Positions 10,488 through 38,194 of a stretch of 41,805 nucleotides of DNA are shown piece after piece; within the stretch, counting starts at the first letter, position 1, and each line of letters starts with the position of its first letter. The notes under the pieces are model-generated. The model was not told the DNA's origin. It ran no database searches and saw only the letters and a list, made by a program, of their open reading frames with translations. This DNA is from a virus. The stretch covers positions 1-41,805 of IMG/VR virus record IMGVR_UViG_3300046721_000214. One strand, given 5' to 3'. The position numbers were made by a program, and so were the translations under genes.

Positions 10488-10735
10488 TTCCGGGTCGTGG
10501 TTCTGCTGATGGTGGGCAGCTTGGCGGTGCCGCGGTCTTTGCCGGCCCCGGCTGCCCCGCCGCTGGCTGGCTTGTTCTGACCTTGGCGGGGCACCGTTTT
10601 CGTTGACTGGCTGCCTGATGCGCGTGTGACCATGGTGGTTCTCCCGAGTTGGTGTTGCCTGAACTTTTCCCGCACATATCCGTCGGCATCGAAATTGCGC
10701 TCCTGCAAGATGCGCAAGAGTTCTGCGGGGCTCAT
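10484..10735 (-). CDS. Small post-portal protein (83 aa)
   Basis: ATG 10735 overlaps the portal stop as ATGA. The N-terminal half is an ordered helical motif, SPAELLRILQERNFDADGY; the second half is basic and Ser/Thr/Gly-rich and probably disordered, ending ISRTTTRK. It may contact DNA or the portal. Function unknown. Confidence 0.7.
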   Translation of the reverse strand: MSPAELLRILQERNFDADGYVREKFRQHQLGRTTMVTRASGSQSTKTVPRQGQNKPASGGAAGAGKDRGTAKLPTISRTTTRK

Positions 10736-13443
10736 TGTCCTGGTTGTGGCGGCGACCCGCCCGGCCGCGGGAGAGGCGGCCCTCCGGGTCCGAACAGCGA
10801 TTTCGCCGCCGCATTAGCCGCGATGTTGCCATACGCGCTCGGCATCTGGCCTTGCATGAGCGCCTGGCGGGTGGCCATCGCCTGCGCTGGATTGAACGAG
10901 CCGGCGGGCGGGCCCATGGGCTGCTGTGGGCGTGGCGGCACCATGGACGGCCCTGGGGCTGCTGGCGCCTGCGGCGGCCGTGGTGGGCCTTGGGGTGGCT
11001 GGCCTGGGGGCGGTCCTGCCGTGGCTGGCATCTGCGGGCTGGTGGGTGGCGGCAGATTGCCGAGCAGTTGGATGCCCGGCACCTTGGACGCCATCGCCTG
11101 CTGGAACTCGGTGAGCGACGGCACGGGGGTGCCGAACTGGGCCCCAGCGACCCAGGTCTTGGTCCAGGCGTCGAGCGCTGCCTTGTCCCTGTTCAGATCA
11201 TCGTCGGTCAGCATCTGCGCCCGCTTAGTCTGTTCCGATGCCCGGTCGTTCTCGACATCGGCCGCGGTCTTGCCGGCCTGCACCTGCGCCAGGATCAGCG
11301 ACGGATCGGGCGGTGTCGGTGGTGGTGGCGGCGCCTGGAACCCGGGGGGTAATGCCTTAAAATACGAGCTGACATCGGCAATGTTGGCGGTTTCCAACAT
11401 GCGCGACAGCGTATTCCGATACTCCGGCACGCCGACCAAGGGATTGGTTAACCCTTGCGTCTGCATGATCATTTCCTGCTTGCCGGCGATCTGGGCGAGC
11501 ATCGCCAGCCGTTCCATCGGCATGCCCTTGCCGCCGACGTTCACGCTGGTCTGCCACATCACGCCGAGCGCCCGCGGATCGATCGGCACCCATTGCCCGC
11601 GGATACGATAGACGTTGGGCCGGTCCTGGTGCCTGGCCATCATGCGCAATAGCCCACTGTAGAGCGGCGCTAGCCCAGTCTCGGCCAACGTCCGCGCCAT
11701 CATGTCGAGCCGGTCCTGAGCTGCGCTGGTCTGCGCCGACACGGCCACGGGTGCCGTGCTCTGCAGCTCGTCCACGGTGAGCCCCTGCGAAGCTCGCGTG
11801 ATGCCTGTCCGGCTCTCCCTGATGGCCTCCAGCGCCTGCATCATGTTGAGCGCGGCCTCGCCGGTATACGGCTTCACCAGCTCGGTGACGGCGCCCGCCT
11901 GGGTCGTCCGGATGATGCTGCCGATGGCGGTCTGACGCGCGTCCGCGAGGTTGACCTGCCCCAGCGTCACCACCGTCCGCGGGAACATGCTCTGGGCTAA
12001 ACTATCCAGCGTCGCGCGCATCACCCGGCTCTCGACCCGCTGCAGGTCCATCACCATGTCGGCCTGGCTGTAACCGATCAGCCGCCCGGGCTCCCGATAC
12101 GGGGTAAAACACGCGAGCGGTATTTCATCCACCCGCTCCCACTGGATCATCTTGGTGGCATTGCCCAGCATGTGGACGTGGATGAGTTCCGCCTTGTGGT
12201 CGTTATCCGTATCGCACCTGATCCAGCCCTCGGCGTAGCGACAGATGCCCATACTGCGGTCACCCGGCGGGCTTGGCTTGATATTGTGCCCCTGGGCCGG
12301 GTTGCGGGCGATCATCTCGCGGCGCTGCTGCGGCCGCATCATGGTGTCGCAGTAGGCGAGGATCTTGTCCTCGGGCAGCCCCATCTCGATCAGGTCGCTG
12401 GCCGGTACATCGCGCACGTGAAAGATGCCACGGGCGCCATCGACGGTATCGGCGTCGGCCACCACCCAGACGCACTCGGCGGGCACGGCCTCGACCACCG
12501 GCCAGTTCTGCTGCGCGGTGCGGGTGATGGTGGCGCTCCACATTTCCGCAGCACCACCCGACTGCAGATACATCGCCCCATCGGGGGTCTTTTGCAGGGT
12601 GGAGACTTCTTCGTCCGTCATCGGGCGCCGGACGATGCGTTGCGCCTCGATGCCCGGCTGCGCCAATAACATCTGGAGCTGCGGCTGCAGTAGGCCCTCG
12701 CAGACATCCGTCCGCACCTGCTCCCGCTTGCCCCAATACCAGCGCGCCCAGCCAGCTTTCCTGGTCAGCGCATCGAGCAGCACGTCGTGCAACACCTGCC
12801 AGCCGTGGTTAGCGGTCATCAGCGCCCAGCGGGCATAATCGGTCGCCTGGCGTGCCAGTGTCGTCGCCAATTGATCGTTGCCGGTGATCTCAGAAGAAAT
12901 CGGCTCAAAGCTGACCGGGTCTTCAACACCCGTGAACACGCGGAGGAGCGAGGGCAGCGTACTCCTGATCGTATCCCGCACCACGGTGAGCACGATCTGC
13001 GAGCGCCCCGGCGTTTCATCCCCCAATGGGCGCCCATCGTAATACTGGGACGCGGTGATCCGCTCGCGGCTGAGATACATGTCATAATTCTGTGCGATAC
13101 GGAAATAGTACTGCGCGACGGCCTCTATCTCGCGATCGTCCTTCCCCAGCCGCTCGAAAACGATCTCCTGCTGCCAGGGCACGCCTTCCGGCTTGACGGT
13201 CGGGCGCAATCCGGCCGCGTAGCGCCGCAGGTTTGGCGGCAGCCCCTGGTCCGGATCGCCGGGAACGTCTGCCCGTGGCTGAGGCACCAGGTAGGCGAGC
13301 ATTTGCTCGCTACCAAGGCTCAACCCCTGTGGCTGCATGCCGGACGGCACCAAGCCTTGCAGCGGCGGCAGGGGCGGGATCATCCCTTGGGGCATTCCCA
13401 TGGGGGACAGCAGGCCGCCGGGTCGTACGATCAGTCCGCTCAC
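10732..13443 (-). CDS. Portal protein, P22 gp1-like (903 aa)
   Basis: A GTG start at 13443 shares its first G with the preceding TAG stop and has GAGGGG about 8 bases upstream. Longer readings run through the upstream gene. Residues about 60-640 show the portal core: AVAQYYFRIAQNYDMYLSRE, RDTIRSTLPSLLRVFTG, GWARWYWGKREQV, the wing and stem region HVHMLGNATKMIQWERVDEI, then VMDLQRVESRVMRATLDSLA and VAVSAQTSAAQDRLDMMART. The last 200 residues are Pro/Gln-rich with little structure. The 12-subunit portal ring is the DNA entry and exit channel and the terminase docking site. At 903 residues it is longer than P22 gp1, mostly through the C-terminal tail. Confidence 0.9.
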   Translation of the reverse strand: MSGLIVRPGGLLSPMGMPQGMIPPLPPLQGLVPSGMQPQGLSLGSEQMLAYLVPQPRADVPGDPDQGLPPNLRRYAAGLRPTVKPEGVPWQQEIVFERLGKDDREIEAVAQYYFRIAQNYDMYLSRERITASQYYDGRPLGDETPGRSQIVLTVVRDTIRSTLPSLLRVFTGVEDPVSFEPISSEITGNDQLATTLARQATDYARWALMTANHGWQVLHDVLLDALTRKAGWARWYWGKREQVRTDVCEGLLQPQLQMLLAQPGIEAQRIVRRPMTDEEVSTLQKTPDGAMYLQSGGAAEMWSATITRTAQQNWPVVEAVPAECVWVVADADTVDGARGIFHVRDVPASDLIEMGLPEDKILAYCDTMMRPQQRREMIARNPAQGHNIKPSPPGDRSMGICRYAEGWIRCDTDNDHKAELIHVHMLGNATKMIQWERVDEIPLACFTPYREPGRLIGYSQADMVMDLQRVESRVMRATLDSLAQSMFPRTVVTLGQVNLADARQTAIGSIIRTTQAGAVTELVKPYTGEAALNMMQALEAIRESRTGITRASQGLTVDELQSTAPVAVSAQTSAAQDRLDMMARTLAETGLAPLYSGLLRMMARHQDRPNVYRIRGQWVPIDPRALGVMWQTSVNVGGKGMPMERLAMLAQIAGKQEMIMQTQGLTNPLVGVPEYRNTLSRMLETANIADVSSYFKALPPGFQAPPPPPTPPDPSLILAQVQAGKTAADVENDRASEQTKRAQMLTDDDLNRDKAALDAWTKTWVAGAQFGTPVPSLTEFQQAMASKVPGIQLLGNLPPPTSPQMPATAGPPPGQPPQGPPRPPQAPAAPGPSMVPPRPQQPMGPPAGSFNPAQAMATRQALMQGQMPSAYGNIAANAAAKSLFGPGGPPLPRPGGSPPQPGQ

Positions 13444-13931
13444 TACATGGTCCCCTCTGCGCCGCCGCCGCCCTCGCTGGCGTCGTGTTCCAGCAGTCCC
13501 GGCGGCACGGGCGCATTCGCCGCCTGCCTGGCCTGTGCCGCCTGGATCATCGCAAGGATGTCGGCCAACCCAGGAAGCTGCGGCGCGGCCTGCGCCGGCG
13601 CTGGTGCCTGCCTGCCCCACATGTCGTAGCCACTGGCACCAGGATTGACGGCGCCGGACCCTTGCTGTGCCTGCGCCAACCCTGGCCCTACGTTCAGCAA
13701 CGGCACGGTGGGTGCGGCCGGCGGCTGCGGCTGTCCCGTGACGACATGCCCCCATTTGTCATAGGCCGTGGGGGCCGCCGGCGCCGGCGCTGCCTGCTGG
13801 GCTGGTATCGGACCATAACCCTGCGGCGCCCACCCCATCCCGACAATCGCATTATACAGGTCGCCCTGCGTCGCAGTCGGGCCGCCTGTCGGCACGCCCA
13901 GCAACCCGGACGGCACCATGGTCCCGCTCAT
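13443..13931 (-). CDS. Pro/Ala-rich protein between terminase and portal (162 aa)
   Basis: ATG 13931 overlaps the terminase stop as ATGA, and its TAG abuts the portal GTG. It begins MSGTMVPSGLLGVPTGG. Most of the protein is low complexity (Pro, Ala, Gln, Gly), with two similar short motifs, YDKWGHVV and YDMWGRQA, and a helical segment LADILAMIQAAQARQAA. It may be a disordered linker or head accessory. Function unknown. Confidence 0.7.
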   Translation of the reverse strand: MSGTMVPSGLLGVPTGGPTATQGDLYNAIVGMGWAPQGYGPIPAQQAAPAPAAPTAYDKWGHVVTGQPQPPAAPTVPLLNVGPGLAQAQQGSGAVNPGASGYDMWGRQAPAPAQAAPQLPGLADILAMIQAAQARQAANAPVPPGLLEHDASEGGGGAEGTM

Positions 13932-15394
13932 ACCTCCACCTCGGCACCCAGTTCCATCCGCATCCCCACCTTGTCGTAGATCCCGCCGCTCATCCCCGAG
14001 CCCACCCCCAGCCCCTGCTGACAGAACGTCAGGTTCAACGCGTCCGCGTAATCACATGATGGCAATCCCCTGGCCCGCATGCTGTTCTTGTCCTCGACCT
14101 TCAACCGGCCATCCGACAGGAACGAATACCGCGGTGCCACCAGGTCGTCCCGCAACCGCTCGTGGCGCGGCAGCCGAACCGCACGCGACGACAACCACTC
14201 CTTGCACCGCACCCACAGCTCGTCGCGCAGCCGGCTATAGCGCCCAGTGGTGCTCGGCGACTCCGAAACATTTATGCCTAATATCGGCAGCCCCTGCTCG
14301 TTGAGGCGATCAACCACCCCGGCCCCAATCCCGATCACGTCTATACAAATCAATACCGGCTTGGTGATCTGGGCGTCCCACTCGGCCTTGATCGCCCCCG
14401 CCAGCATCATGGTATCCAGCTGATGGAAGCTGCGCGGCATCTCAGGCACCACGTTGCCCCGCCGCTTGATCAGGACACTGGCATCCGTCCCGAACCGCGC
14501 GACATCGACGCCCCAGATCTCGGGAGAGCCGTCCAACGCGACATCCCGCACCATCGCGCCATCAACCAACTCAGCCGGGATCAGCGTATCGGCATCGGCC
14601 AGCGGAAATTCCCCGAGGACTCTGACCCTGTACGCATTGCTGTCCTGGCCATACCGGCCGGCAATCTCGTCGGCAAAGTCCTGCGTCACCCGCGGGCTGT
14701 CGGTGTGCCCGACCTTCATGCAGAACCAGCGGTCCCGCTCCAACATAAAGGCCTTCCAGAAGAACCCGGATGACCGTGTCGGGTTGCCGATGAGCAGCGT
14801 AATCGCCCCCGCACTGCTCATGCTCCCACTCGCCGCCTCGAACACCTGTTCCGGCACGCCGGACGCCTCGTCCACCACCAGCAGGATGTTGTCGCTGTGC
14901 AGCCCCGCCAGCGCCTCCGGGGTCTCGGGCCTGCTGGTTCTCGCCGTAATAAAACACTCCGGGTTGCTCTTCAGCGTGATGTGGTCGCTGGTCACATGCC
15001 ACAGCTCGCGCCACGCCCCCGGCAACCGATCCAGCCACTTGATCACCTCGGGGTAAAGGGCATCAAAAAGTTGGGGAGAGGATGGCGCCGTCATCGCCAG
15101 CTTGAACGGTGCGCGCGTATTGCTGAACCACACCGCCACCCACGCCGCCAGCGCGGTCTTGCCGGGCCCGTGGCAGCTGCGCACCGCGATCCGCGTGTGC
15201 CCCCTCGCCAGCGCCCGCAGCACCTTCATCTGCCAGTCGTCCGGCTCGGCCAACAACACTTCCCGAACAAATGCGATCGGCGCCCTCGCATAGCGCGCCA
15301 GAGAGACTTCATAGGGATTTGGTGCCCTCGCGATAGCTTCCGCCCACGAGGGTGGCATCCGTTCCGCATAGTCAGGGGCGGTGTAGTCGTTCAT
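13928..15394 (-). CDS. terL: Terminase large subunit (488 aa)
   Basis: The N-terminal ATPase has Walker A SCHGPGKT (residues 73-80), Walker B ILLVVDE (170-176) with the catalytic Glu, and a coupling motif around GNPTRSSG (203-210). The C-terminal RNase H-like nuclease starts GVDVARFGTDASV (Asp297 as the first metal ligand), followed by LICIDVIGIGAGVVDRL. The length is typical. The enzyme pumps DNA into the procapsid and cuts concatemers. ATG 15394 overlaps the upstream TGA; an in-frame GTG at 15397 is an alternative start. AGGA lies about 6 bases before ATG. Confidence 0.95.
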   Translation of the reverse strand: MNDYTAPDYAERMPPSWAEAIARAPNPYEVSLARYARAPIAFVREVLLAEPDDWQMKVLRALARGHTRIAVRSCHGPGKTALAAWVAVWFSNTRAPFKLAMTAPSSPQLFDALYPEVIKWLDRLPGAWRELWHVTSDHITLKSNPECFITARTSRPETPEALAGLHSDNILLVVDEASGVPEQVFEAASGSMSSAGAITLLIGNPTRSSGFFWKAFMLERDRWFCMKVGHTDSPRVTQDFADEIAGRYGQDSNAYRVRVLGEFPLADADTLIPAELVDGAMVRDVALDGSPEIWGVDVARFGTDASVLIKRRGNVVPEMPRSFHQLDTMMLAGAIKAEWDAQITKPVLICIDVIGIGAGVVDRLNEQGLPILGINVSESPSTTGRYSRLRDELWVRCKEWLSSRAVRLPRHERLRDDLVAPRYSFLSDGRLKVEDKNSMRARGLPSCDYADALNLTFCQQGLGVGSGMSGGIYDKVGMRMELGAEVEV

Positions 15395-15690
15395 CACCCT
15401 TCCTGAAGTTCAGATGGCAGTGGCGGCAGCGTGCGGGCGCCGGGTCTCAGCGGCTGAGCCCGCGCCCGTGCCAGCACCACCCGGCCGGGAGGCGGCTCCG
15501 GCAGCCCCTGGGGGCCTCCACGCGGCCCCAGCTTCAGCGTCTCGATCTCGGAGCGCACGCTGTATTTGGACCGCCCCAGCATGCGCCCCAGGAGCGTGCA
15601 GCCCATGCCGTTCTCCCAGAGTTGGCGTAAGAGCGTGCGCTCTTCGTCCGTCCAGGGAACGCTGATGACGTGCTTCATGCTGGCTGGCAT
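15394..15690 (-). CDS. GcrA-like HTH protein, possible small terminase (98 aa)
   Basis: ATG 15690 follows GAGGAG with a 6-base spacer (ACCACC). Residues about 13-52 (WTDEERTLLRQLWENG, LLGRMLGRSKYSVRSEIETL) have the pattern of the GcrA cell-cycle regulator HTH of alphaproteobacteria: W-T-D/E start, then a helix-turn-helix. The rest is Pro/Arg-rich. The stop overlaps the terminase start, the usual place for the DNA-recognition small subunit, so it may serve as TerS. The alternative is a GcrA mimic that retunes host transcription. Only 28 bases separate it from the divergent gene at 15719. Confidence 0.7.
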   Translation of the reverse strand: MPASMKHVISVPWTDEERTLLRQLWENGMGCTLLGRMLGRSKYSVRSEIETLKLGPRGGPQGLPEPPPGRVVLARARAQPLRPGARTLPPLPSELQEG

Positions 15691-15718
15691 GGTGGTCTCC
15701 TCACTGGGAGGAAAGAGC

Positions 15719-15973
15719 ATGGAACGGAGCAAGCTCATGGAACGGAATGATGTGAGCGACCTGGTGTGGGAGATCGAGCCGCACCTGGCCGGTCAGCCGC
15801 CATCCGTCCAAGGCGCGGCGCTGGCGGATTTACTCGCTACCTGGCTGGCTGGGCACTTCGCTGGCAGTGCTGCCGAGAACGCCGCGCTGCGCGATGAACT
15901 GCTGACAGCACATATCGCTGTGGTTCGCGCGCTGATCCCGGAGAACGAGGCTGAGATACTGTCCCGCCAGTAA
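15719..15973 (+). CDS. Small acidic helical protein (84 aa)
   Basis: ATG 15719 follows GGGAGG with a 7-base spacer; a second ATG seven codons on is possible. The product is acidic and helical (AALADLLATWLAGHFAG, ALRDELLTAHIAVVRAL, ENEAEIL) without signal or membrane features. It starts divergently, 28 bases from the GcrA-like gene, so its promoter must lie within or across that gene. A terminator-like hairpin follows. Function unknown. Confidence 0.65.
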   Translation: MERSKLMERNDVSDLVWEIEPHLAGQPPSVQGAALADLLATWLAGHFAGSAAENAALRDELLTAHIAVVRALIPENEAEILSRQ

Positions 15974-16803: not shown

Positions 16804-16989
16804 TCACGGACACTTGCCCAGCCGCCACACCCGGTCGTCCGCCGTGCCGCCCGTGGTCAGCATCGCACCGTCCACCAGCCCACGCCGATTCAGCCACTGC
16901 AATAGCCGGAACGTCGTCCGCAACTCGCTCTCACGGTGCCAGCCGCCATCCGCCAGCAGCCCGAGGACGCGCCTCTCAGCTTGGGTCAT
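16804..16989 (-). CDS. Small winged-helix-like protein (61 aa)
   Basis: ATG 16989 overlaps the preceding stop as ATGA. The sequence MTQAERRVLGLLADGGWH, SELRTTFRLLQWLNRRGLVD and VWRLG fits a compact winged helix: three helices, then a beta-wing. It is the last gene of the leftward module that begins upstream of the PEP-CTERM gene. A transcriptional role is inferred from fold resemblance only. It converges on the plus-strand zinc-ribbon genes 7 bases away. Confidence 0.65.
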   Translation of the reverse strand: MTQAERRVLGLLADGGWHRESELRTTFRLLQWLNRRGLVDGAMLTTGGTADDRVWRLGKCP

Positions 16990-17186
16990 GGCCGCAGCAG
17001 GCATTTTTCCACGATCCGGTTGAGCAGCTCGGCGCGGGCCATGGTGTTGTGATCGTAGATCCACCAGAACATGAACATGAACATCGCGTTCAAGATCAAC
17101 AGCAAAATGAACGCTGGCGGTAGGACGCGAATGAGTTTTTCACTGATCCCCGCCAGCAGCCCGTTGGTGCGCTCCTGCTCGGTCAC
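16986..17186 (-). CDS. Small single-pass membrane protein (66 aa)
   Basis: A GTG start at 17186 overlaps the preceding TGA (GTGA). Residues about 21-44 form one hydrophobic segment, VLPPAFILLLILNAMFMFMF, followed by WWIYDHN; both ends are charged and helical (SEKLIRV, ARAELLNRIVEK). It could be a holin-type or other inner-membrane protein. No endolysin gene is adjacent, so the lysis role is uncertain. Confidence 0.7.
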   Translation of the reverse strand: MTEQERTNGLLAGISEKLIRVLPPAFILLLILNAMFMFMFWWIYDHNTMARAELLNRIVEKCLLRP

Positions 17187-17350
17187 ACCCGCGGCAACTG
17201 GCGATCGAGATAGGCCCGTAGCTCAGCCCGCGTGACGTACCCCACGATCTTGCCGCACCGGACGCACTGCCCGCCGCAGCCGCCGGCGTCCTCGTAGTGC
17301 CGGCACGGGCACCACCCCCAGCAGAACAGCCGTCGCCACCAGGGACGCAT
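17183..17350 (-). CDS. Cys-rich small protein, DUF1660-like (55 aa)
   Basis: ATG 17350 overlaps the PEP-CTERM stop as TGATG, and its TGA overlaps the next GTG. Six cysteines occur in 25 residues, including CGGQCVRCGKIVGY. This resembles the short prophage zinc-ribbon family often labelled DUF1660 (Cys/Trp-rich start, then CxxCG). The tight coupling links it to both neighbours. Confidence 0.6.
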   Translation of the reverse strand: MRPWWRRLFCWGWCPCRHYEDAGGCGGQCVRCGKIVGYVTRAELRAYLDRQLPRV

Positions 17351-17985
17351 CACACCCGCCGCTGACGCACCAACCCAAGCCCCAGCAACCCCACGCCCAA
17401 CAACGCCAGGCTAACCGGCTCCGGCACCGCGCTGGCACTGAATGTCCCCGACACGCTGCTCGTGAAGCTGCCGATGCTGGTGCCCACAATGCTGAAACCC
17501 GGCGTGATGTTCGCAAACGCCAGGCCCACCGCGCTGGGCTGCAGCAGCGAGGTAATCACATCGGATGTCAGCGTGAGCGCATCAGGCGGCGCACCAACCG
17601 CCAGCGCACCACCCGCACCGCTGCCGAACGTCACGTCAGAGAACACGCCCGACAGGTAGTTCGTGCCGGCGCCACCTGCCGCGCTGGTAATGCTGAACGT
17701 GCCGCTGAACTTCTGCGCGGATCCACCGAGGATGGGTTGTGCAGCGCCAATGGACGCCGCGTTCAGGTCAAAGAACGCCGCCGTCGGCACCCCATTCTCG
17801 ATCTGGGTGATGCTGATGGACGCATCGGTCGCGCTCAGCGTCGTGGCATCCTGGGCGCCGTTCTCAGTGGCGGTGATCGGCGTCCCAGCGGTTTGACCGA
17901 AGCTAAGAATGACCGTGGCATAGGCCGGCGCGTGGAAGAACATGGCGCCCGCGATAATGCTGACGCCGAGCAGTGCGTGTTTCAT
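17350..17985 (-). CDS. Secreted protein with PEP-CTERM sorting signal (211 aa)
   Basis: Residues 1-23 are a signal peptide (MKHALLGVSIIAGAMFF then APAYA). The mature part is a Thr/Ser/Gly-rich beta protein. The C-terminus has VPEP (187-190), a hydrophobic helix SLALLGVGLLGLGLV and RQRR, the full PEP-CTERM tripartite signal cut by exosortase. GAGGG lies 8 bases before ATG 17985. It is coupled by TGATG to phage genes downstream, so it is part of the phage operon and not a chance flank. It probably alters the host surface or matrix during infection or carriage. Sorting would need a host exosortase; none is encoded here. Confidence 0.85.
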   Translation of the reverse strand: MKHALLGVSIIAGAMFFHAPAYATVILSFGQTAGTPITATENGAQDATTLSATDASISITQIENGVPTAAFFDLNAASIGAAQPILGGSAQKFSGTFSITSAAGGAGTNYLSGVFSDVTFGSGAGGALAVGAPPDALTLTSDVITSLLQPSAVGLAFANITPGFSIVGTSIGSFTSSVSGTFSASAVPEPVSLALLGVGLLGLGLVRQRRV

Positions 17986-18019
17986 GACGTAGTTCCCTCA
18001 CTTGACTGTGTAACGAATA

Positions 18020-18036
18020 CCTTCCATACTGGAAGG
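18020..18036. repeat. Left-end inverted repeat of TnpB element
   Basis: CCTTCCA-TAC-TGGAAGG is a perfect 7-bp stem with a 3-base loop. It directly abuts the tnpB ATG and includes its GGAAGG ribosome-site sequence. Such subterminal hairpins are bound by TnpA in this family. Here it could also mask the ribosome site. Confidence 0.6.
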
Positions 18037-19113
18037 ATGAAGCTGGTCGCCGCCCTCAAGATGCTACCGACGCGCGAACAGGCGGTGGTTCTGAGAGCGA
18101 CGCTTGCGCGCTGTAATGAGGCGTGCACGTGGCTCGCCGATATCGGCTTCGGTCGTGAGACCTTCCGCCAATACGACCTGCACAAATTGGCCTACATCGA
18201 CCTGCGGGAACGCTTCGGCCTGACTGCTCAGGCTGCTGTCCGATCCATCGCTAAGGTAGCCGACGCCTTCAAGGTCAACCGCAAGGTCGCGCCTGTCTTT
18301 CGTAAGGACGCTGCACAACCCTACGACGACCGCATTATCCGTTTCGTCCAGGACGGGACTGCCGTCAACCTCTGGACCGTCGAAGGACGCATTGCCGTCC
18401 CGATCGTAATGGGCGAGCACCAACGACGACTGATGGCCTATCGCAAGGGCGAGGTCGATCTGTGCTTCGTGCGTGGCAAATGGATGCTCGCCGCAACCTG
18501 CGACATTCCCGAGACCAACGAGTTCAGAGCAACCGACTGGCTCGGCGTAGACTTCGGTATTGTCTCGCTCGCCGCTGATAGCGATGGCACCGTGCATACC
18601 GGCGCCGATGTTGAGCGCGTCAGGGATCGTCTCTCGCGCCGTCAGCGAGGACTTCAGAAGCGAGGCACCAAGGCCGCAAAACGCAGACTCCGCAAGCTTG
18701 CCGGGAAGGAGGCCCGATTCCGCAAGCATACCAACCACTGCATCTCGAAAGTGATCGTGCAGACTGCCAAACGCACCGATCGTGGTATCGCCCTGGAAGA
18801 CCTGAGGGGAATACGCGGTCGGGTTACGGCCCGGCGCAGTCAACGGTCTCGCTTGCACTCCTGGTCGTTCCAGCAGCTTCGTGCGTTCGTCGCCTACAAG
18901 GCGAAGCGTAGCGGCGTCCCGCTGGTCACTGTCGATCCAAGCTACACAAGCCAAGCCTGCTCGTGCTGTGGTGCGATCGACAGAAAGAACAGACAGGATC
19001 AAGCAACTTTCCTTTGCATCTCTTGCGGTCACAACGAAGCCGCAGACCTCAACGCAGCCCGGAATATCCGGGCGAAGGCGGCTGTCGTCCCGCCTCAAGT
19101 TCTGGCCGCATAA
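18037..19113 (+). CDS. tnpB: TnpB RNA-guided endonuclease (358 aa)
   Basis: The RuvC-like active site is complete: Asp172 (GVDFGIVSLAADSDG), Glu254 (IALEDLRGIRG) and Asp337 (NEAADLNAARNI). A zinc finger is present between the last two motifs (Cys308-x2-Cys311, Cys327-x2-Cys330). The basic region 197-232 (RRQRGLQKRGTKAAKRRLRK) is typical of the guide-binding part. ATG 18037 was chosen because it follows the left-end hairpin; the open frame extends further but only into flank. TnpB cuts DNA matching a guide read from the element's right flank and keeps the element in the population. The gene runs against the surrounding phage genes. At 358 residues it is slightly shorter than common TnpB proteins but not visibly truncated. 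Confidence 0.92.
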   Translation: MKLVAALKMLPTREQAVVLRATLARCNEACTWLADIGFGRETFRQYDLHKLAYIDLRERFGLTAQAAVRSIAKVADAFKVNRKVAPVFRKDAAQPYDDRIIRFVQDGTAVNLWTVEGRIAVPIVMGEHQRRLMAYRKGEVDLCFVRGKWMLAATCDIPETNEFRATDWLGVDFGIVSLAADSDGTVHTGADVERVRDRLSRRQRGLQKRGTKAAKRRLRKLAGKEARFRKHTNHCISKVIVQTAKRTDRGIALEDLRGIRGRVTARRSQRSRLHSWSFQQLRAFVAYKAKRSGVPLVTVDPSYTSQACSCCGAIDRKNRQDQATFLCISCGHNEAADLNAARNIRAKAAVVPPQVLAA

Positions 19114-19157
19114 TCTGCGGCATGGAAAAGCCCCTCCCGCAGGGAGGGGATCGATGA
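18980..19157 (+). ncRNA. Predicted omega RNA (reRNA) of TnpB
   Basis: In this family the guide RNA comes from the 3' end of tnpB and the right end. A CCCCTCCC-GCA-GGGAGGGG stem followed by ATCGATGACG sits where the conserved final scaffold hairpin is expected. The 5' end is a guess. The guide would begin about base 19158 (ACGTGAAGTCCCC). Confidence 0.4.
19124..19149 (-). terminator. Terminator-like reading of the TnpB right-end hairpin
   Basis: Read on the minus strand, an 8-bp GC stem with a 3-base loop is followed by CTTTTCC. This would stop leftward transcription from the proline-rich gene before it reaches the PEP-CTERM gene. The same DNA is the omega RNA hairpin on the plus strand. Confidence 0.45.
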
Positions 19158-19186
19158 CGACGTGAAGTCCCCTGTGTGTTTGTTGG

Positions 19187-19687
19187 TTACTTCGGCTGCG
19201 CGTGCGGCGGCAGCGGCATGCCAGGACGCAGCGATGGGTCCACAGCAATGAACCGCCACCCCAGCGACGGGCAATACGCGACCATCCAGTACGTCTTGCT
19301 GGGCAGCGCGTTGTCGATCTGCCCACCCTGCCCGCCAGGAAGCCCCTGATCGGGTCGCGGCGGGTTCCCAGGCATCGGCCCACCACCAGGGTGTGGCACG
19401 CCTGGCAGCACGTTACTGGCGTGTGGTGGGCGACCAGGCGACGGCCAGATGGTGCCAGGTTGCACCGGCAATGTGTTGTCGGGGCCAATTGGCACGATGG
19501 GATTGCCAAGGCTCGGCGGCGGCCAGATGCCAGGCGGTGGCTCCGGCAGCGCATTGTCGATCCCAGGCTGATTCCCAGGCAGTCCCTGATCCGGATAGGC
19601 AGGCGATCCAGGCAGCCCTTGGTCCGGATATCCGCCGCTCATCCCCTCAACGTTCAAATACCCGCCCGTGACGTGAACCCGTGCCAT
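19187..19687 (-). CDS. Proline-rich repeat protein with C-terminal ordered tail (166 aa)
   Basis: GGAG lies 7 bases before ATG 19687; an upstream ATG in frame has no support. The centre is made of imperfect repeats, DQGLPG (three times), IDNALP (twice), DNTLP and NVLPG, in a Pro/Gly-rich matrix. The last 45 residues are ordered: KTYWMVAYCPSLGWRFIAVD. Similar proteins with DNTLP repeats and a short aromatic C-terminal domain occur in alphaproteobacterial phages, role unknown. They may be flexible virion or surface proteins. It is followed by the TnpB element. Confidence 0.75.
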   Translation of the reverse strand: MARVHVTGGYLNVEGMSGGYPDQGLPGSPAYPDQGLPGNQPGIDNALPEPPPGIWPPPSLGNPIVPIGPDNTLPVQPGTIWPSPGRPPHASNVLPGVPHPGGGPMPGNPPRPDQGLPGGQGGQIDNALPSKTYWMVAYCPSLGWRFIAVDPSLRPGMPLPPHAQPK

Positions 19688-19721
19688 CTTAATTCTCCAT
19701 GCGTTGATCTGTAGATGTCTG

Positions 19722-20738
19722 CTATTGGCGATCAGCCACGACGCCGAGCTGGCTGGTGATGTGTGTGTGGCCATGCCCGTGATGGCCATGCACGACCGGC
19801 GGGGGGGGCGGCGTCACCACCGTGCCCGGGTTGGTGAAGTCGAGCGAGCCGGTATCCAGCACAGGGCGGCTGGCCAGAAAGATGGTGCTCGGGCCGGCCG
19901 GCACCTGCGCCACCGCCAGGCCCCACACGCTGTTGTCGCTAAACCCCGGCTGCGTCGCCGTGGGGTCCAGCAGGAACCGCGCATTGGCCGCCGCGTCGTC
20001 GTTGACGATGGTGTTGCCGGCAATGATGAAGCTCAGGCTTGGGTGGGTGATCCCCTCCTCGCCATACGCAACGATCGCCGGGTTCTGGGTGTTCGGCCCC
20101 TGCTCTATCTGGTTGCCGCTGATCGTCGCATTGCCGCCGTTCGGCAGGTCGATGCTGTAGCTGGCGCTGCCGCCGTTGTCGAAGATACGGTTGCCGGTGA
20201 TGGTGTTGTTGGCAGCTCTGCTCTTGATCTCATGCCCAACTACGGCGTCGTGGATGTAGGAGTTCGTGATAGAGAAATTCGCGATAGCTCCAACATAGAT
20301 ATTGTGAGTTGACCCTGAGCCGTCGCCATTGTTGGCAAACTCTGAGTGGCCGATGGTAATTGCACCGTTGCTATCCGCAGCGCCGAGGAGGCCTTCTTGG
20401 TTGCCGTGGAAGAAGTCGTCCTTGAGCGAGAGGTTGCCGCCCTCGTAGCGGATCGCAGCGCCATTTCGATCCGGTACAGCCACCCCGCTAATGTCGAACC
20501 CATTGATCGCCACGCTGATGCCACTGGCCCCCTCCGTGATCATCGCCTTGCCGTTGGGCGGCTGCACAGTCTCCCGCATCAGCACCTCGCCACTCACCGC
20601 CTGCAGCGTGATCGAGGTGCGGATGGTCAGGAACTGATCGGTGTATGTCCCCGCCTGCACGTCGATCGTGTCGCCCGACGCTGCCGCGTTGATCGCTGCC
20701 TGGATGCTCTGCCCGTTGCTGACAGTCAGGGGTGCCAT
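19722..20738 (-). CDS. Right-handed parallel beta-helix protein (338 aa)
   Basis: It begins with VSNGQSIQAAINAAASGDTIDVQAGTY-like layout, the usual start of NosD/pectate-lyase-like helices. Coil repeats follow (IAINGFDISG-type, ITNSYIHDA, NNTITGNRIFDNG, NATISGNQIE). No signal peptide is seen. Residues about 312-325 are Pro-rich and end in a His tract, HGHHGHGHTH, a likely metal-binding tail. GAGG lies 4 bases before ATG 20738. It is outside the fiber cluster, so it may be a separate glycan-active or structural protein. No catalytic residues were assigned. Confidence 0.8.
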   Translation of the reverse strand: MAPLTVSNGQSIQAAINAAASGDTIDVQAGTYTDQFLTIRTSITLQAVSGEVLMRETVQPPNGKAMITEGASGISVAINGFDISGVAVPDRNGAAIRYEGGNLSLKDDFFHGNQEGLLGAADSNGAITIGHSEFANNGDGSGSTHNIYVGAIANFSITNSYIHDAVVGHEIKSRAANNTITGNRIFDNGGSASYSIDLPNGGNATISGNQIEQGPNTQNPAIVAYGEEGITHPSLSFIIAGNTIVNDDAAANARFLLDPTATQPGFSDNSVWGLAVAQVPAGPSTIFLASRPVLDTGSLDFTNPGTVVTPPPPPVVHGHHGHGHTHITSQLGVVADRQ

Positions 20739-22175: not shown

Positions 22176-22766
22176 CTAGTAATCCTGACGCTCGACAAGT
22201 GCGTCAAATGGGTAGACAACCTCGCGTAGTTGTCCGAGGAAGAGGATGCCGACGGTGGCGTTTTCGCCCTCGGCTGCGAGCACCACGCCGGGCAGTCCCA
22301 TCAGCGGGCCAACGCGAGGCGCCACAGCGTCGCCCGGGTGCCATTGGGCCTCATTTCTGGTGGCTGTAGCGGCGAACGCCTGAGCGGCCTGTATGGCCTC
22401 GACGGCGCCTGGCCTGGCGTACTGCACTTTCCCTCCTGCGGTGATCACGGAAGCGACGCCTGGGGTTTCGCGAATGGGACGCCAGAGGTCTGGGTTGTCA
22501 TGGGCCACGAACAGGTAGCGGGTGAAGAGCGGGACGACGACGGGATGGGTCATGGTTGGGATGGTTCGGTCGCGGCGCTGGACGGTGTGGAGGGGCAGGT
22601 AGGTTTGGTAGCCGGAGCGCTGGAGGTTGGTGTTGGCGAAGTGCTCGGCTTGGGGGTGGGTTTGTGCGACGGCCCATCGGGGCGATGCAATGCCGCGGCA
22701 CCCGAGGTCACCGGGTGCGGGTTCGGGTGTAGCTACGCACTGTGGCTGGTTGGCGTCAAGCGGCAT
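22176..22766 (-). CDS. NusG-family transcription elongation factor (196 aa)
   Basis: Residues about 30-135 form an NGN domain (RWAVAQTHPQAEHFANTNLQ, GYQTYLPL, VVPLFTRYLFVAHD, WRPIRETPGVASVI). Residues about 143-192 form a KOW domain (WHPGDAVAPRVGPLMGLPGV, FLGQLREVVYPFDALV). A 28-residue N-terminal extension is unlike housekeeping NusG and fits specialised paralogs (RfaH-like). It should bind RNA polymerase and promote processive transcription or antitermination of phage genes. ATG 22766 is the first ATG; a TTG at 22790 would read into the upstream repeats. The preceding 165 bp hold a repeat array. Confidence 0.85.
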   Translation of the reverse strand: MPLDANQPQCVATPEPAPGDLGCRGIASPRWAVAQTHPQAEHFANTNLQRSGYQTYLPLHTVQRRDRTIPTMTHPVVVPLFTRYLFVAHDNPDLWRPIRETPGVASVITAGGKVQYARPGAVEAIQAAQAFAATATRNEAQWHPGDAVAPRVGPLMGLPGVVLAAEGENATVGILFLGQLREVVYPFDALVERQDY

Positions 22767-22772
22767 GGCTGG

Positions 22773-22928
22773 GTGCGCCAATTGCGCCAATTCCGCGCCA
22801 ATTCCAGCTATGGACCGGGGGACTGCTGCGCCATTTTAAATGCCGGTTTACCGGCATAAATTGGCGCACCCCGTCCTCCGCTGCGCCAATTGCGCGCCAA
22901 TTGAAGGGAAGACATCTCGAATTGGCGC
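22773..22928. repeat. GCGCCAATT repeat array (candidate origin or operator)
   Basis: Exact copies of GCGCCAATT occur on the plus strand at 22775-22783, 22784-22792, 22795-22803, 22883-22891 and 22894-22902, and inverted (AATTGGCGC) at 22859-22867 and 22920-22928. A degenerate copy (GCGCCATTT) is at 22828-22836. The palindrome 22840-22857 sits in the centre. Most of the spacer between the zinc-finger and NusG-like genes is repeats. The layout suits cooperative protein binding: replication iterons next to the helicase gene, or an operator or antitermination site before the NusG-like gene. Confidence 0.85.
22840..22857. promoter_or_regulatory. 18-bp palindrome inside the repeat array
   Basis: ATGCCGGT-TT-ACCGGCAT is a perfect inverted repeat with a 2-base spacer. 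It lies in an AT-richer stretch (TTTTAAA before, AAATT after) between the two repeat clusters. It could be a dimer-binding operator or the unwinding site of an origin. Confidence 0.7.
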
Positions 22929-26748: not shown

Positions 26749-26779
26749 TTGACGAAGCGGGACTAAATGTCCCATTTTG
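26749..26779 (+). promoter_or_regulatory. Promoter with embedded operator, upstream of repressor gene
   Basis: TTGAC (26749-26753) is a -35-like box. GGGAC-TAAAT-GTCCC (26759-26773), a perfect inverted repeat, fills the space before a weak -10 (CATTTT). A near-identical arrangement occurs at 27239. It suggests control by the repressor dimer. Confidence 0.55.
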
Positions 26780-26783
26780 GCGG

Positions 26784-26800
26784 AGCTAAATTATTTAGCT
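26784..26800. promoter_or_regulatory. 17-bp AT-rich palindrome before repressor gene
   Basis: AGCTAAAT-T-ATTTAGCT is a perfect inverted repeat 17 bases before the GTG start of the repressor. It is a second type of operator, possibly for the Cro-like protein. The following TTTT would make a weak terminator, but the AT-rich stem argues against that. Confidence 0.55.
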
Positions 26801-26817
26801 TTTTAAAGGAGCGCGCT

Positions 26818-27216
26818 GTGCGCCAGACCCCCTATGACCTCCAGGAAGAAGACGCCCAACGCATAGGGGACCGCTTGCGATGGGTGCGAGAACTGGTTGA
26901 CGCAACGCCAACCCAGCTCGCCGCAGACCTCGGTGTGGATAGCTCGTCAGTGCGTCACATCGAGAACGGCATACGGCTTCCTTCGCTGCGCATGCTCATG
27001 GTTCTCTGCCATGTCTTGCGCATTTCTCCACAGTACCTGCTATGGGGTTCACTCGTTGGAGTTGAGCCAGAATTAGCGGCCAGGCTGAAAGCGGAACATC
27101 CTGAGCTGAGCTGGCCAGCCGCATCATCTGCTCCCGACAGTAGCCGCACGTCGCGACCGAGCAGCGGTCACCGCTCCAGGACACGGGGGAGACACACCGT
27201 ATCGGGGGCTGCGTAG
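26818..27216 (+). CDS. XRE-family repressor-like protein (132 aa)
   Basis: A GTG start at 26818 has GGAG 6 bases upstream; the upstream ATG would place the operator palindrome inside the gene. Residues about 12-70 are an XRE HTH (RIGDRLRWVRELVDATPTQL, AADLGVDSSSVRHIENGI, PSLRMLMVLCHVLRISPQYL). The C-terminal 50 residues are Ser/Arg-rich without a LexA-like peptidase, so it would not be RecA-cleavable. It is divergent to the Cro-like gene and likely represses both early promoters. Confidence 0.8.
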   Translation: MRQTPYDLQEEDAQRIGDRLRWVRELVDATPTQLAADLGVDSSSVRHIENGIRLPSLRMLMVLCHVLRISPQYLLWGSLVGVEPELAARLKAEHPELSWPAASSAPDSSRTSRPSSGHRSRTRGRHTVSGAA

Positions 27217-27728: not shown

Positions 27729-27847
27729 GCGGCACGCTGCGCCAACAGGCCCTCGATGAGCTGCTGAACGAAATCGGGGAATGGCGAACGGCCAGGCCGC
27801 AGTTCAGGGGGGCGGAACTTGTCTCTGCAATCGCGGCCAAGCAATGA
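27725..27847 (+). CDS. Frame lacking a standard start codon (about 40 codons)
   Basis: The frame GTLRQQALDELLNEIGEW, then AELVSAIAAKQ, looks like a real amphipathic protein, and its TGA overlaps the next ATG as ATGA. There is no ATG, GTG or TTG in frame close upstream; the nearest overlap is ATA at 27725, sharing bases with the previous TAG. It could be a shifted C-terminal part of the 63-residue gene, use a rare ATA start, or be chance. Confidence 0.35.
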   Translation: MGGTLRQQALDELLNEIGEWRTARPQFRGAELVSAIAAKQ

Positions 27848-28662
27848 TGAGCGATCCTGTCCTCCGTGTTCTCTCGCTTGGTGCGGGTGTCCAATCAACG
27901 ACGTTGGCTCTTTTAGCGGCACACGGCGACATAGGGCCGATGCCAGATTGCGCCATTTTTGCTGATACAGGCAGTGAACCAGCCGCAGTCTACAGCCACC
28001 TAGAATGGCTCACGATGCAGCTGCCGTTTCCGGTGCATCATGTGATGGCCAAGATAGGACCGCTCGGAAAGGCAGTCCTCGCCTCGTTTCTGGGCGACAC
28101 CCCACGCAGCGCGTGTCCTCCCTTCTTCACAGCGAACCCGGACAGCATGCTGCCGCGCCAATGCACCAAAGAAGCGAAGGTCCGGCCGATCGTCGCGATG
28201 ATCCGAGAGATGCTTGGCGTTGCGGCGCGCGCGCCGGTTCCGGCCGGAACCGTCGTGGAGCAATGGCTTGGCATCTCCACCGACGAGGCGCACCGCATGA
28301 AGCCAGCGGAACAGCCGTGGATCAGGAACCGCTGGCCACTGATCGAGGCAGAGTTCTCGCGGCGTGCCTGTCTACGGTGGCTGGAGGCGGCTGGTTATCC
28401 GAAGCCTGTCAAGTCGGCTTGCGTGTGGTGCCCGTATCACGACGACGCGGCGTGGCGGACCATGAAAGCCAACCAGCCGGAAGACTTCGCGGTTGCGGTC
28501 GCGTTCGACGCGGCGATCAGGGACGGACCACCCGGCCAGCGTGGCAAGGTCTACCTGCACCGTAGCCGCCAGCCACTCGATCAGGTCGATCTCTCAACCT
28601 GGGAGGAACGCGGCCAGTCCGACTTATTCGGTGAAGAATGCGAAGGGATGTGCGGCGTATGA
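27844..28662 (+). CDS. PP-loop ATPase, PAPS-reductase-like (272 aa)
   Basis: The N-terminus has the PP-loop variant SLGAGVQSTTLALLA (residues 11-25) followed by ADTGSEPAAVY. Later come LPRQCTKEAKVRPI and SACVWCPYHDDAAW, giving three cysteines (Cys, then CxxC) that could bind a cluster or sulfur. Phage members of this family are labelled PAPS reductases, but many relatives thiolate or deaminate nucleic acids instead. It may take part in DNA or tRNA modification. ATG 27844 overlaps the upstream TGA; a second ATG follows. The gene ends ATGA with the next gene. Confidence 0.8.
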   Translation: MMSDPVLRVLSLGAGVQSTTLALLAAHGDIGPMPDCAIFADTGSEPAAVYSHLEWLTMQLPFPVHHVMAKIGPLGKAVLASFLGDTPRSACPPFFTANPDSMLPRQCTKEAKVRPIVAMIREMLGVAARAPVPAGTVVEQWLGISTDEAHRMKPAEQPWIRNRWPLIEAEFSRRACLRWLEAAGYPKPVKSACVWCPYHDDAAWRTMKANQPEDFAVAVAFDAAIRDGPPGQRGKVYLHRSRQPLDQVDLSTWEERGQSDLFGEECEGMCGV

Positions 28663-36412: not shown

Positions 36413-36820
36413 TTACAACCCCAATAAGCCGCTAGGCCGCGAACCGCCCTGGAGGTTGACCGGGCGCGCGTTGGCCGGGTTGGATGCGGCTCGCAGTGCA
36501 GCAACACGCTCCATCAGCATCTGCACGAGGCCGTGCATGCCAGCCGGGTTGCCGCTGTAGGCACCCGAGGAAGCCCCGCCCGATGCCGCTGACGCGCCTG
36601 CCGGCAGGTTTGACGCCGCCGGCTGCTGCGGGGTACCAGCCTTAAGCCCTTCCATCGCCTTGGCAAGACCAGCAGCGTCGATGCCACCGCCAGTGTCGCC
36701 TGGCTGGTTCCAGGTTCCGCTATCAACGAACCCGCCCTGGCCCACAGGGATCTGCTCGTTGCCCCACTGGGCGAGCACATCGGCAGTCGGTGTGAAGGTG
36801 CCATCAAGAGCAGTGGGCAT
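36413..36820 (-). CDS. Small virion-module protein (135 aa)
   Basis: It starts MPTALDGTFTPTADVLAQW, followed by Gly/Ala/Ser-rich low-complexity sequence with one helix (GMHGLVQMLMERVAALRAA). It overlaps the PP-loop gene's 3' end by 17 bases. No family was recognised. Its place among ejection-protein genes suggests a small virion component. Confidence 0.65.
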   Translation of the reverse strand: MPTALDGTFTPTADVLAQWGNEQIPVGQGGFVDSGTWNQPGDTGGGIDAAGLAKAMEGLKAGTPQQPAASNLPAGASAASGGASSGAYSGNPAGMHGLVQMLMERVAALRAASNPANARPVNLQGGSRPSGLLGL

Positions 36821-37550
36821 CGTTCAGCTCCGTCGCTATCTCGTTGGTCAGCAACCGCAACGGCTCGCTGATCTCCTGATCGATCATCCGCAACCGCGCG
36901 ACATACCGCTGATGGATTTCCGGATGCTGCCGCCGCAGCCACGCGCCACGTTTCTCCGACCACCAGGCAGAGCACCCAGCGCAATCCACGCCGTGCTCCA
37001 GCTCCGGATAGAACGCCGGCAGTGGTGCCCCGACGCGCGCCAGATACCCCAGCACGTCGGCGGTGCTCCACGTCTCCAGCGGGTAGAACACCTCGATGCC
37101 GTCCAGCACATCGCCGTCATGCGATGGCATGATCCGCATGTCGTTCTGTCGAATGCCGCTGATCATCATCGTGTTGCCGTCTGCCACGATCCTGGCAAAC
37201 AGCGGGCCGGCGCGATTGTCCCGGCAGCAATCGTAGCGCGAGGCCAGCCGTGTGCTCCCCTCGCCCATCACCTGCCCGAGATAGTGTGCCGTATGCGGCA
37301 CGAGATCGGTGGGGATGCCGTTGCGCTCGATCCAGCTTGTCACATCGGTTTGGACGCGGACGAAATGCGGCACCATGGCCTCGATCGCTGCCACGCTTTC
37401 GCGCATTTCCGGCAGCTCGTCCCCGGTATCAATGTGGTAGACGCAAATGCGGTCCCAGTCCTCCCGGAGTAGATACACGCACGCGAGGCTATCCTTGCCG
37501 CCGCTGAAGGCCAGCGCGATCTTGTCGTGTCGATCCAGGCGCTCGCTCAT
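36804..37550 (-). CDS. PP-loop ATPase, PAPS-reductase family, in virion module (248 aa)
   Basis: The PP-loop SGGKDS (residues 16-21) sits in IALAFSGGKDSLACVYLL, followed by VYHIDTGDELPEM. Cysteines occur in YDCCRD and GVDCAGCSAWW, and GIRQNDMRIMP and YPLETWSTADVLGYLAR match the substrate region of the family. It differs from the 27844 protein in motif spacing, so the two are not recent copies. ATG 37550 overlaps the methyltransferase stop as ATGA. A metabolic enzyme among virion genes is unusual; with the coupled methyltransferase it may modify nucleic acid or a virion component. Confidence 0.8.
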   Translation of the reverse strand: MSERLDRHDKIALAFSGGKDSLACVYLLREDWDRICVYHIDTGDELPEMRESVAAIEAMVPHFVRVQTDVTSWIERNGIPTDLVPHTAHYLGQVMGEGSTRLASRYDCCRDNRAGPLFARIVADGNTMMISGIRQNDMRIMPSHDGDVLDGIEVFYPLETWSTADVLGYLARVGAPLPAFYPELEHGVDCAGCSAWWSEKRGAWLRRQHPEIHQRYVARLRMIDQEISEPLRLLTNEIATELNDAHCS

Positions 37551-38194
37551 TGCCGCACCGCGCGCCAGGCGACCAGGGCGATCTGGCTGAAGATAGCGGC
37601 GCCATCCGGCACGATAGCGCAGGCCATCGAGAACCGCTCGGGATGCGGCTTGAGGCGCTCCCAGGACACGATGCGCCAGCCGGCTGCCTCGGCTGCGGCC
37701 TGTGTCTGCTCGACGCTGACGGCGTGGCATCCTAGCCGCTGCTCCATCAGCGTGTTGTCGCCGCTAAGCCGCTCGAAGTCGTACACGAACAGCCAGCCAT
37801 CCGGTTGCACGAGACGGTGCGCCGAGGGCAGGGCATCGAGCAGACGCCCGTAGCACAACGAGTAGAGGAACATGGCCCCGGAGGCGTAGCCATCCGGCAG
37901 CGGGACGTGGTGGTAATCGGCCAGCACCCGCAGCATTTTCGGGTCGGCCATCGCGAGTTGCAGCGGCTCGCTGTTGACCAGCGCAAATCGCAGATCTGGC
38001 CGCTCGGCGCCCATCAACTGCGCCACGCCACCGATGCCGCAGCCGAGATCCAGTACCGTGGCGTCCTGCTCAGGCTCCATCATCGCCAGCAGCGCGCTGA
38101 CGTGGGCCGCCTCGGTCAGCGCCAACGTGGCACCCTGAAGCACGTTGAAGCGCAGGCCCATAAGCGTATCCAAGGGGGCGGTGGGCTGCGTCAT
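37547..38194 (-). CDS. Class I SAM-dependent methyltransferase (215 aa)
   Basis: Motif I is VLDLGCGIGGVAQLMG (residues about 47-62), followed by ALVNSEPLQLAMAD, PLPDGYASGAMFLYSLCYG and LVQPDGWLFVYDF, the usual order of Rossmann methyltransferases. The fold resembles small-molecule or lipid methyltransferases more than DNA enzymes; no NPPY motif is present. It is coupled by ATGA to both neighbours. Its substrate is unknown. The link to the PP-loop gene suggests joint action. Confidence 0.8.
   Translation of the reverse strand: MTQPTAPLDTLMGLRFNVLQGATLALTEAAHVSALLAMMEPEQDATVLDLGCGIGGVAQLMGAERPDLRFALVNSEPLQLAMADPKMLRVLADYHHVPLPDGYASGAMFLYSLCYGRLLDALPSAHRLVQPDGWLFVYDFERLSGDNTLMEQRLGCHAVSVEQTQAAAEAAGWRIVSWERLKPHPERFSMACAIVPDGAAIFSQIALVAWRAVRQ

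Follow-up and report, generated by a model that had tools for sequence, protein, structure and literature searches.

Phage genes for PEP-CTERM proteins and their possible use of the host exosortase

Exosortase sorting has so far been studied as a cellular pathway of biofilm and exopolysaccharide (EPS). What, then, might a protein with the tag of that pathway be doing in a phage? The question is raised by a virus record of 41,805 bases, analysed here over its whole length (the window), which contains a terminase, an SU10-type portal and a capsid, and which also encodes a virion-structure protein and an endolysin-like hydrolase. An earlier note on this DNA had placed a phage-encoded PEP-CTERM protein, a putative exosortase substrate, at positions 17350-17985.

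The tagged protein and its surroundings

We found the following gene and protein segments at this position:

17350..17985, minus strand: PEP-CTERM protein gene, ATG start, 211 residues; PF07589 and TIGR02595 above their cut-offs
17917..17985, minus strand: signal peptide, residues 1-23 (MKHALLGVSIIAGAMFFHAPAYA), by inspection; AF2 helix at 3-15 with low confidence
17434..17916, minus strand: ectodomain, residues 24-184, antiparallel beta in the AF2 model, with no Pfam or NCBIfam match by itself
17350..17433, minus strand: PEP-CTERM tail, residues 185-211 plus stop codon, with VPEP, a transmembrane helix and RQRR (PF07589, TIGR02595, AF2 helix 192-210)

By inspection, the N-terminus carries the Sec-type signal peptide expected of PEP-CTERM proteins, with an A-Y-A cleavage site. 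The C-terminus, VPEPVSLALLGVGLLGLGLVRQRRV, scores 22.7 bits against PF07589 (cut-off 20.7) and 21.2 bits against TIGR02595 (cut-off 16), and the protein combines the PEP motif, hydrophobic helix and basic cluster of the curated PEP-CTERM definition. The earlier note was thus right about both the complete signal peptide and the tail of V-PEP, helix and RQRR. A rule asking for a PEP motif followed by a hydrophobic and basic tail selected a single ORF in the window, against zero among the 34,116 ORFs of 100 resampled windows. The gene has a GC3 of 0.797, inside the range spanned by other genes of the phage. PADLOC gave no match for the protein, and an Rfam search found nothing.

Between signal peptide and tail, the AF2 model built on the family alignment (mean pLDDT 76.7, pTM 0.68) predicts a beta-rich domain of ~160 residues, in an overall layout of N-terminal helix, antiparallel beta domain and C-terminal helix. 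We could not place this domain in a known fold: the ectodomain alone had no match above cut-off in Pfam or NCBIfam, Foldseek found none at E 0.001 or lower in the PDB and BFVD, a sequence profile gave no convincing match to PDB chains, and the best VIA-align Z (8.2) is a value to be expected even where no relative exists. The VIA-align matches were mixed, comprising calycin/dirigent/allene-oxide-cyclase-like barrels and OmpA-like barrels.

The protein resembles the Gram-negative PEP-CTERM/exosortase substrates (PF07589, TIGR02595) in having the same N-terminal signal, the same PEP motif, transmembrane helix and basic end, and an ectodomain of no known family. Unlike them, it is encoded in a late packaging module, where we distinguish these features:

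10732..13755, minus strand: portal, SU10 type (PF23899, 1.1e-145)
13928..15397, minus strand: terminase large subunit (phrog_2, 1e-39)
15394..15738, minus strand: HTH-like small protein, possible small terminase (weak phrog_323 match)
16986..17186, minus strand: single-TM protein of 66 residues in a T7-type-holin-like position, recurrent beside the PEP-CTERM gene (locus comparison)
17183..17350, minus strand: CxxC ORF of 55 residues, its ATG overlapping the PEP-CTERM stop codon (TGATG), recognised via the twin locus L001
18037..19113, plus strand: TnpB, a recent insertion in the PEP-CTERM gene leader (NF040570, 171 bits; D, E and D motifs present)
19159..19176, plus strand: displaced copy of the PEP-CTERM leader (reverse complement CACAGGGGACTTCACGTC), 3' of tnpB, from leader comparison with siblings
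19187..19789, minus strand: proline/glycine-rich protein with PDQGLPG repeats, a frequent upstream neighbour in related phages
22176..22790, minus strand: NusG/RfaH-like antiterminator, upstream of the late block (PF02357, 9.4e-13; phrog_6386)

The 66-residue single-TM protein has no family match; divergent analogues of it occur in relatives. A TGATG coupling of the PEP-CTERM gene to phage genes had also been claimed. The overlap is real at the 3' end, where it joins the CxxC ORF, but only there; the upstream gene does not belong to a phage operon and is the divergent tnpB of a recently inserted element, 51 bp away.

Among the loci tabulated, the TnpB element (17986-19176) is restricted to the window and its twin (L001; loci of contig 3300046517_001300). 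In sibling phages, a common leader ending CACAGGGGCTTCACGTC precedes the PEP-CTERM start. In the window, this leader recurs 3' of tnpB with a single additional base, and the PEP-CTERM start retains ...ACGTCATG; we therefore conclude that the element entered the leader. A search for other cargo behind the 18-base leader located it on 36 contigs, and the readable ones run into a PEP-CTERM gene. We rejected the idea that the PEP-CTERM gene is TnpB cargo, as the gene is widespread without tnpB. In IS200/IS605 biology, the flank of the element would serve as guide. A TnpB guide taken from the 3' flank could target the leaders of siblings, an effect that the extra base may weaken.

A further observation concerns the 5' end of the gene. 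The signal peptide (first 24 residues) is near-identical between the window and loci L034 and L036, in proteins that are ~50% identical overall, which suggests recombination at this end; L034 shares the leader with the window as well.

Spread, synteny and selection in viral relatives

A scan of viral sequences with the protein alone yielded 38 loci, and using the alignment raised this to 117 or more IMG/VR stretches with relatives, of which 80 were kept. The earlier note had considered that the gene might be host flank, absent from all related phages; this proved false, given homologs in so many viral stretches and conserved synteny among them. The recurrent order begins with a NusG-like gene, sometimes a beta-helix protein, and the proline/glycine-rich protein, whose ORF is often the upstream neighbour in other viral loci. 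The PEP-CTERM gene follows, and then, on the packaging side, the small single-TM protein, the HTH-like small protein, terminase and portal. In 19/61 cases the PEP-CTERM gene runs into the start of the gene that follows. In five close relatives (L041, L042, L052, L054 and L059) there is no PEP-CTERM gene near the terminase, and the gene is therefore accessory. A terminase (phrog_2) is present in 34 of 50 PEP-bearing viral records and an SU10 portal match in 12 (11 above the cut-off), from which it follows that the family spans more than one phage lineage. The 50,697 sequenced phages of INPHARED gave no match, either to the family or to a generic PEP-CTERM tail.

The tag is well preserved. All 61 distinct viral proteins extracted keep the hydrophobic C-terminal tail, and by eye 59 have a literal P-E-P, the other two reading VEPS or FEPS. 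Where the viral proteins are full length, the plan of signal plus tail is kept. In a set of 46 rows, eight of them bacterial (A2), 36 members match TIGR02595 at E 0.01. Among pairs of at least 80% identity, dN/dS was 0.19 for the whole gene; by part (172 pairs), the ratio was 0.17 in the ectodomain, rising to 0.21 in the tail and 0.33 in the signal peptide. By these ratios, purifying selection on the gene extends to the tail. The tree, built from 60 viral rows and 17 bacterial ones, needs two label changes and branches deeply on the viral side, with a few long bacterial branches uncertain in their placement; on this tree the viral proteins are a deep group separate from their bacterial relatives, reflecting long diversification apart from those found. 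Overall, there is strong support both for a phage origin of the gene and for its exosortase tag.

Beside the family member, the tail rule identified a second PEP-CTERM-like gene in L131, L132, L140 (8645-9367) and L135 (2594-3355).

Cellular relatives and exosortases

The nearest cellular relatives found, ~40-45% identical, belong to Sabulicella rubraurantiaca, a Roseococcus sp. (both Acetobacteraceae) and one Planctomycetales MAG. The Sabulicella and Roseococcus paralogs are chromosomal and homologous to the phage protein across most of the ectodomain and the tail. Unlike the phage family, they occur as many dispersed copies per genome (at least 10 in Sabulicella and 9 in Roseococcus), with a tail motif that is mostly VPAP, and the homology of these copies does not extend beyond the gene and its immediate flanks.

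Exosortases accompany these relatives. We detected one in each of the three genomes of the nearest cellular relatives (chosen via loci L072, L074 and L076) and, in a family search started from Sabulicella, in 111 of 299 family genomes. Of the latter we searched 44 for the tag. Strong PEP-CTERM tails were present in all 23 exosortase-positive genomes sampled (best E 5.1e-6 or lower) and in 4 of the 21 negative ones (best E 6.8e-6 or lower); exosortase and tag therefore largely travel together there, a co-occurrence that does not point to a particular phage host.

On the viral side, unlike in the Gram-negative systems, no exosortase was found in the records searched: it is absent from the window and from all 50 PEP-bearing viral records, many of which are fragments. 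Processing would therefore depend on the host. Because the phage gene is tagged, occurs on many viral contigs and has no viral exosortase found with it, use of the host enzyme, as the earlier note suggested, is the natural reading of a phage PEP-CTERM protein. A tagged family under selection with no viral exosortase found would imply that phages exploit the exosortase pathway. It would also provide a host clue for uncultured soil phages, since exosortase-positive bacteria would be the expected hosts. Weak host hints come from tnpB, for which a counterpart with 70% identity exists in a genome from the same family group, and from the window terminase, whose best named isolate is Sinorhizobium phage phiM5 (49%).

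A prophage route to the host led no further. Terminase relatives occurred in 10 of the 299 family genomes at no more than 36% identity, and a capsid search of 348 Acetobacterales genomes gave no match; a prophage close to the window was thus not found in the genomes covered by these searches.

Possible roles of the tagged protein

How might a phage benefit from such a protein? Our preferred reading, held tentatively and at a little under even confidence, is that this phage-resident family of exosortase substrates alters the surface of the infected cell late in the lytic cycle, masking receptor or matrix sites. The protein would be made alongside the packaging genes, late in infection, exported by Sec, and retained by its tail in the inner membrane. 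The host exosortase would then cut the PEP-CTERM signal and let the freed beta-structured domain reach the cell surface or the exopolysaccharide. There, the domain may mask receptor or matrix sites and so alter the surface of the dying host, a form of lytic conversion; superinfection would be prevented, and the debris and slime left by lysed hosts would cost the phage no progeny.

Anchored envelope proteins encoded by phages offer a precedent. Llp of the lytic phage T5 is an anchored protein with the same purpose as the masking proposed here (PMC9586334), and T5 Llp and Cor (PMC9586334), as well as Ltp of a Streptococcus phage (PMC3952083), are likewise phage-encoded, exported and anchored in the envelope. 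These three are lipoproteins; the window protein has no cysteine in residues 1-30, which rules it out as a lipoprotein of the T5 Llp/Cor type, and bears an exosortase tag instead. We found no sequence relationship to Llp, Cor or Ltp, and the link to Llp, an unrelated periplasmic lipoprotein, is a functional analogy that we propose. It is conceivable, with somewhat less than an even chance, that several phage lineages use the host exosortase as a display system, achieving lytic conversion through it rather than through lipoproteins. The family would then serve as a natural reporter of exosortase specificity and as a testable link from phage infection to the biofilm matrix. Searches of the open-licence literature on PEP-CTERM with phages, prophages or auxiliary metabolic genes brought up no report of a phage-encoded PEP-CTERM protein; as this covers open-licence literature only, priority cannot be claimed.

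Exclusion of superinfection by a lysogen is less natural than lytic conversion, because none of the window proteins scanned could be recognised as an integrase and the genomes searched gave no close prophage, but a CI-like regulator gene at 26767-27216 tempers this preference.

Among the alternatives, the one that survives best, although we consider it unlikely, has the processed protein join the host exopolysaccharide and alter flocculation or release, so that progeny leave or stay in the biofilm. In Zoogloea and Aquincola, PEP-CTERM proteins bind EPS to the cells (PMC9850573), and roles of such proteins in EPS binding and floc formation are known (PMC9850573; PMC12188702). Genes for a pectate-lyase-like and a NosD/beta-helix protein lie in the window too. 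The flocculation protein PepA (NF033554) has the PEP-CTERM tail in common with the phage family, and 45 of 46 members reach its model at a weak similarity of 41.2 bits. This score lies under the cut-off of 80 and is lost once the tail is removed, so membership in floc_PepA was rejected; nor was a glycan-binding domain recognised in the protein.

A role in lysis appears distinctly improbable. Here the protein would stay uncleaved, its tail in the inner membrane beside the holin-like protein, and aid envelope disruption. In T7, the holin and the small and large terminase form one block, and the PEP-CTERM gene adjoins a small single-TM protein and the terminase in an arrangement that resembles it. 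The PEP motif itself is conserved, however, and a plain anchor would not need it; for this reason we prefer lytic conversion to a plain inner-membrane anchor.

Less probable still is that the protein is a decoy, an abundant phage substrate that would occupy the host exosortase to saturation and leave the surface stripped of host PEP-CTERM proteins. A conserved tail on an ectodomain without known function would suit such a decoy, but it would need the tail alone, and purifying selection on the ectodomain (dN/dS 0.17) is no weaker than on the tail (0.21), which is why we favour lytic conversion. Finally, that this is a host gene recently picked up or an assembly chimera, with no phage role, as the existence of cellular relatives and the absence of the gene in some close phages might suggest, is barely credible, being contradicted by the conserved synteny across many viral contigs and by purifying selection, and at odds with the deep viral group and a GC3 in the range of other phage genes.

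Elsewhere in the window we observed two PAPS-reductase-like proteins, at 27781-28662 and 36804-37730, the former of which also matches the SspD defence model (2.7e-14).
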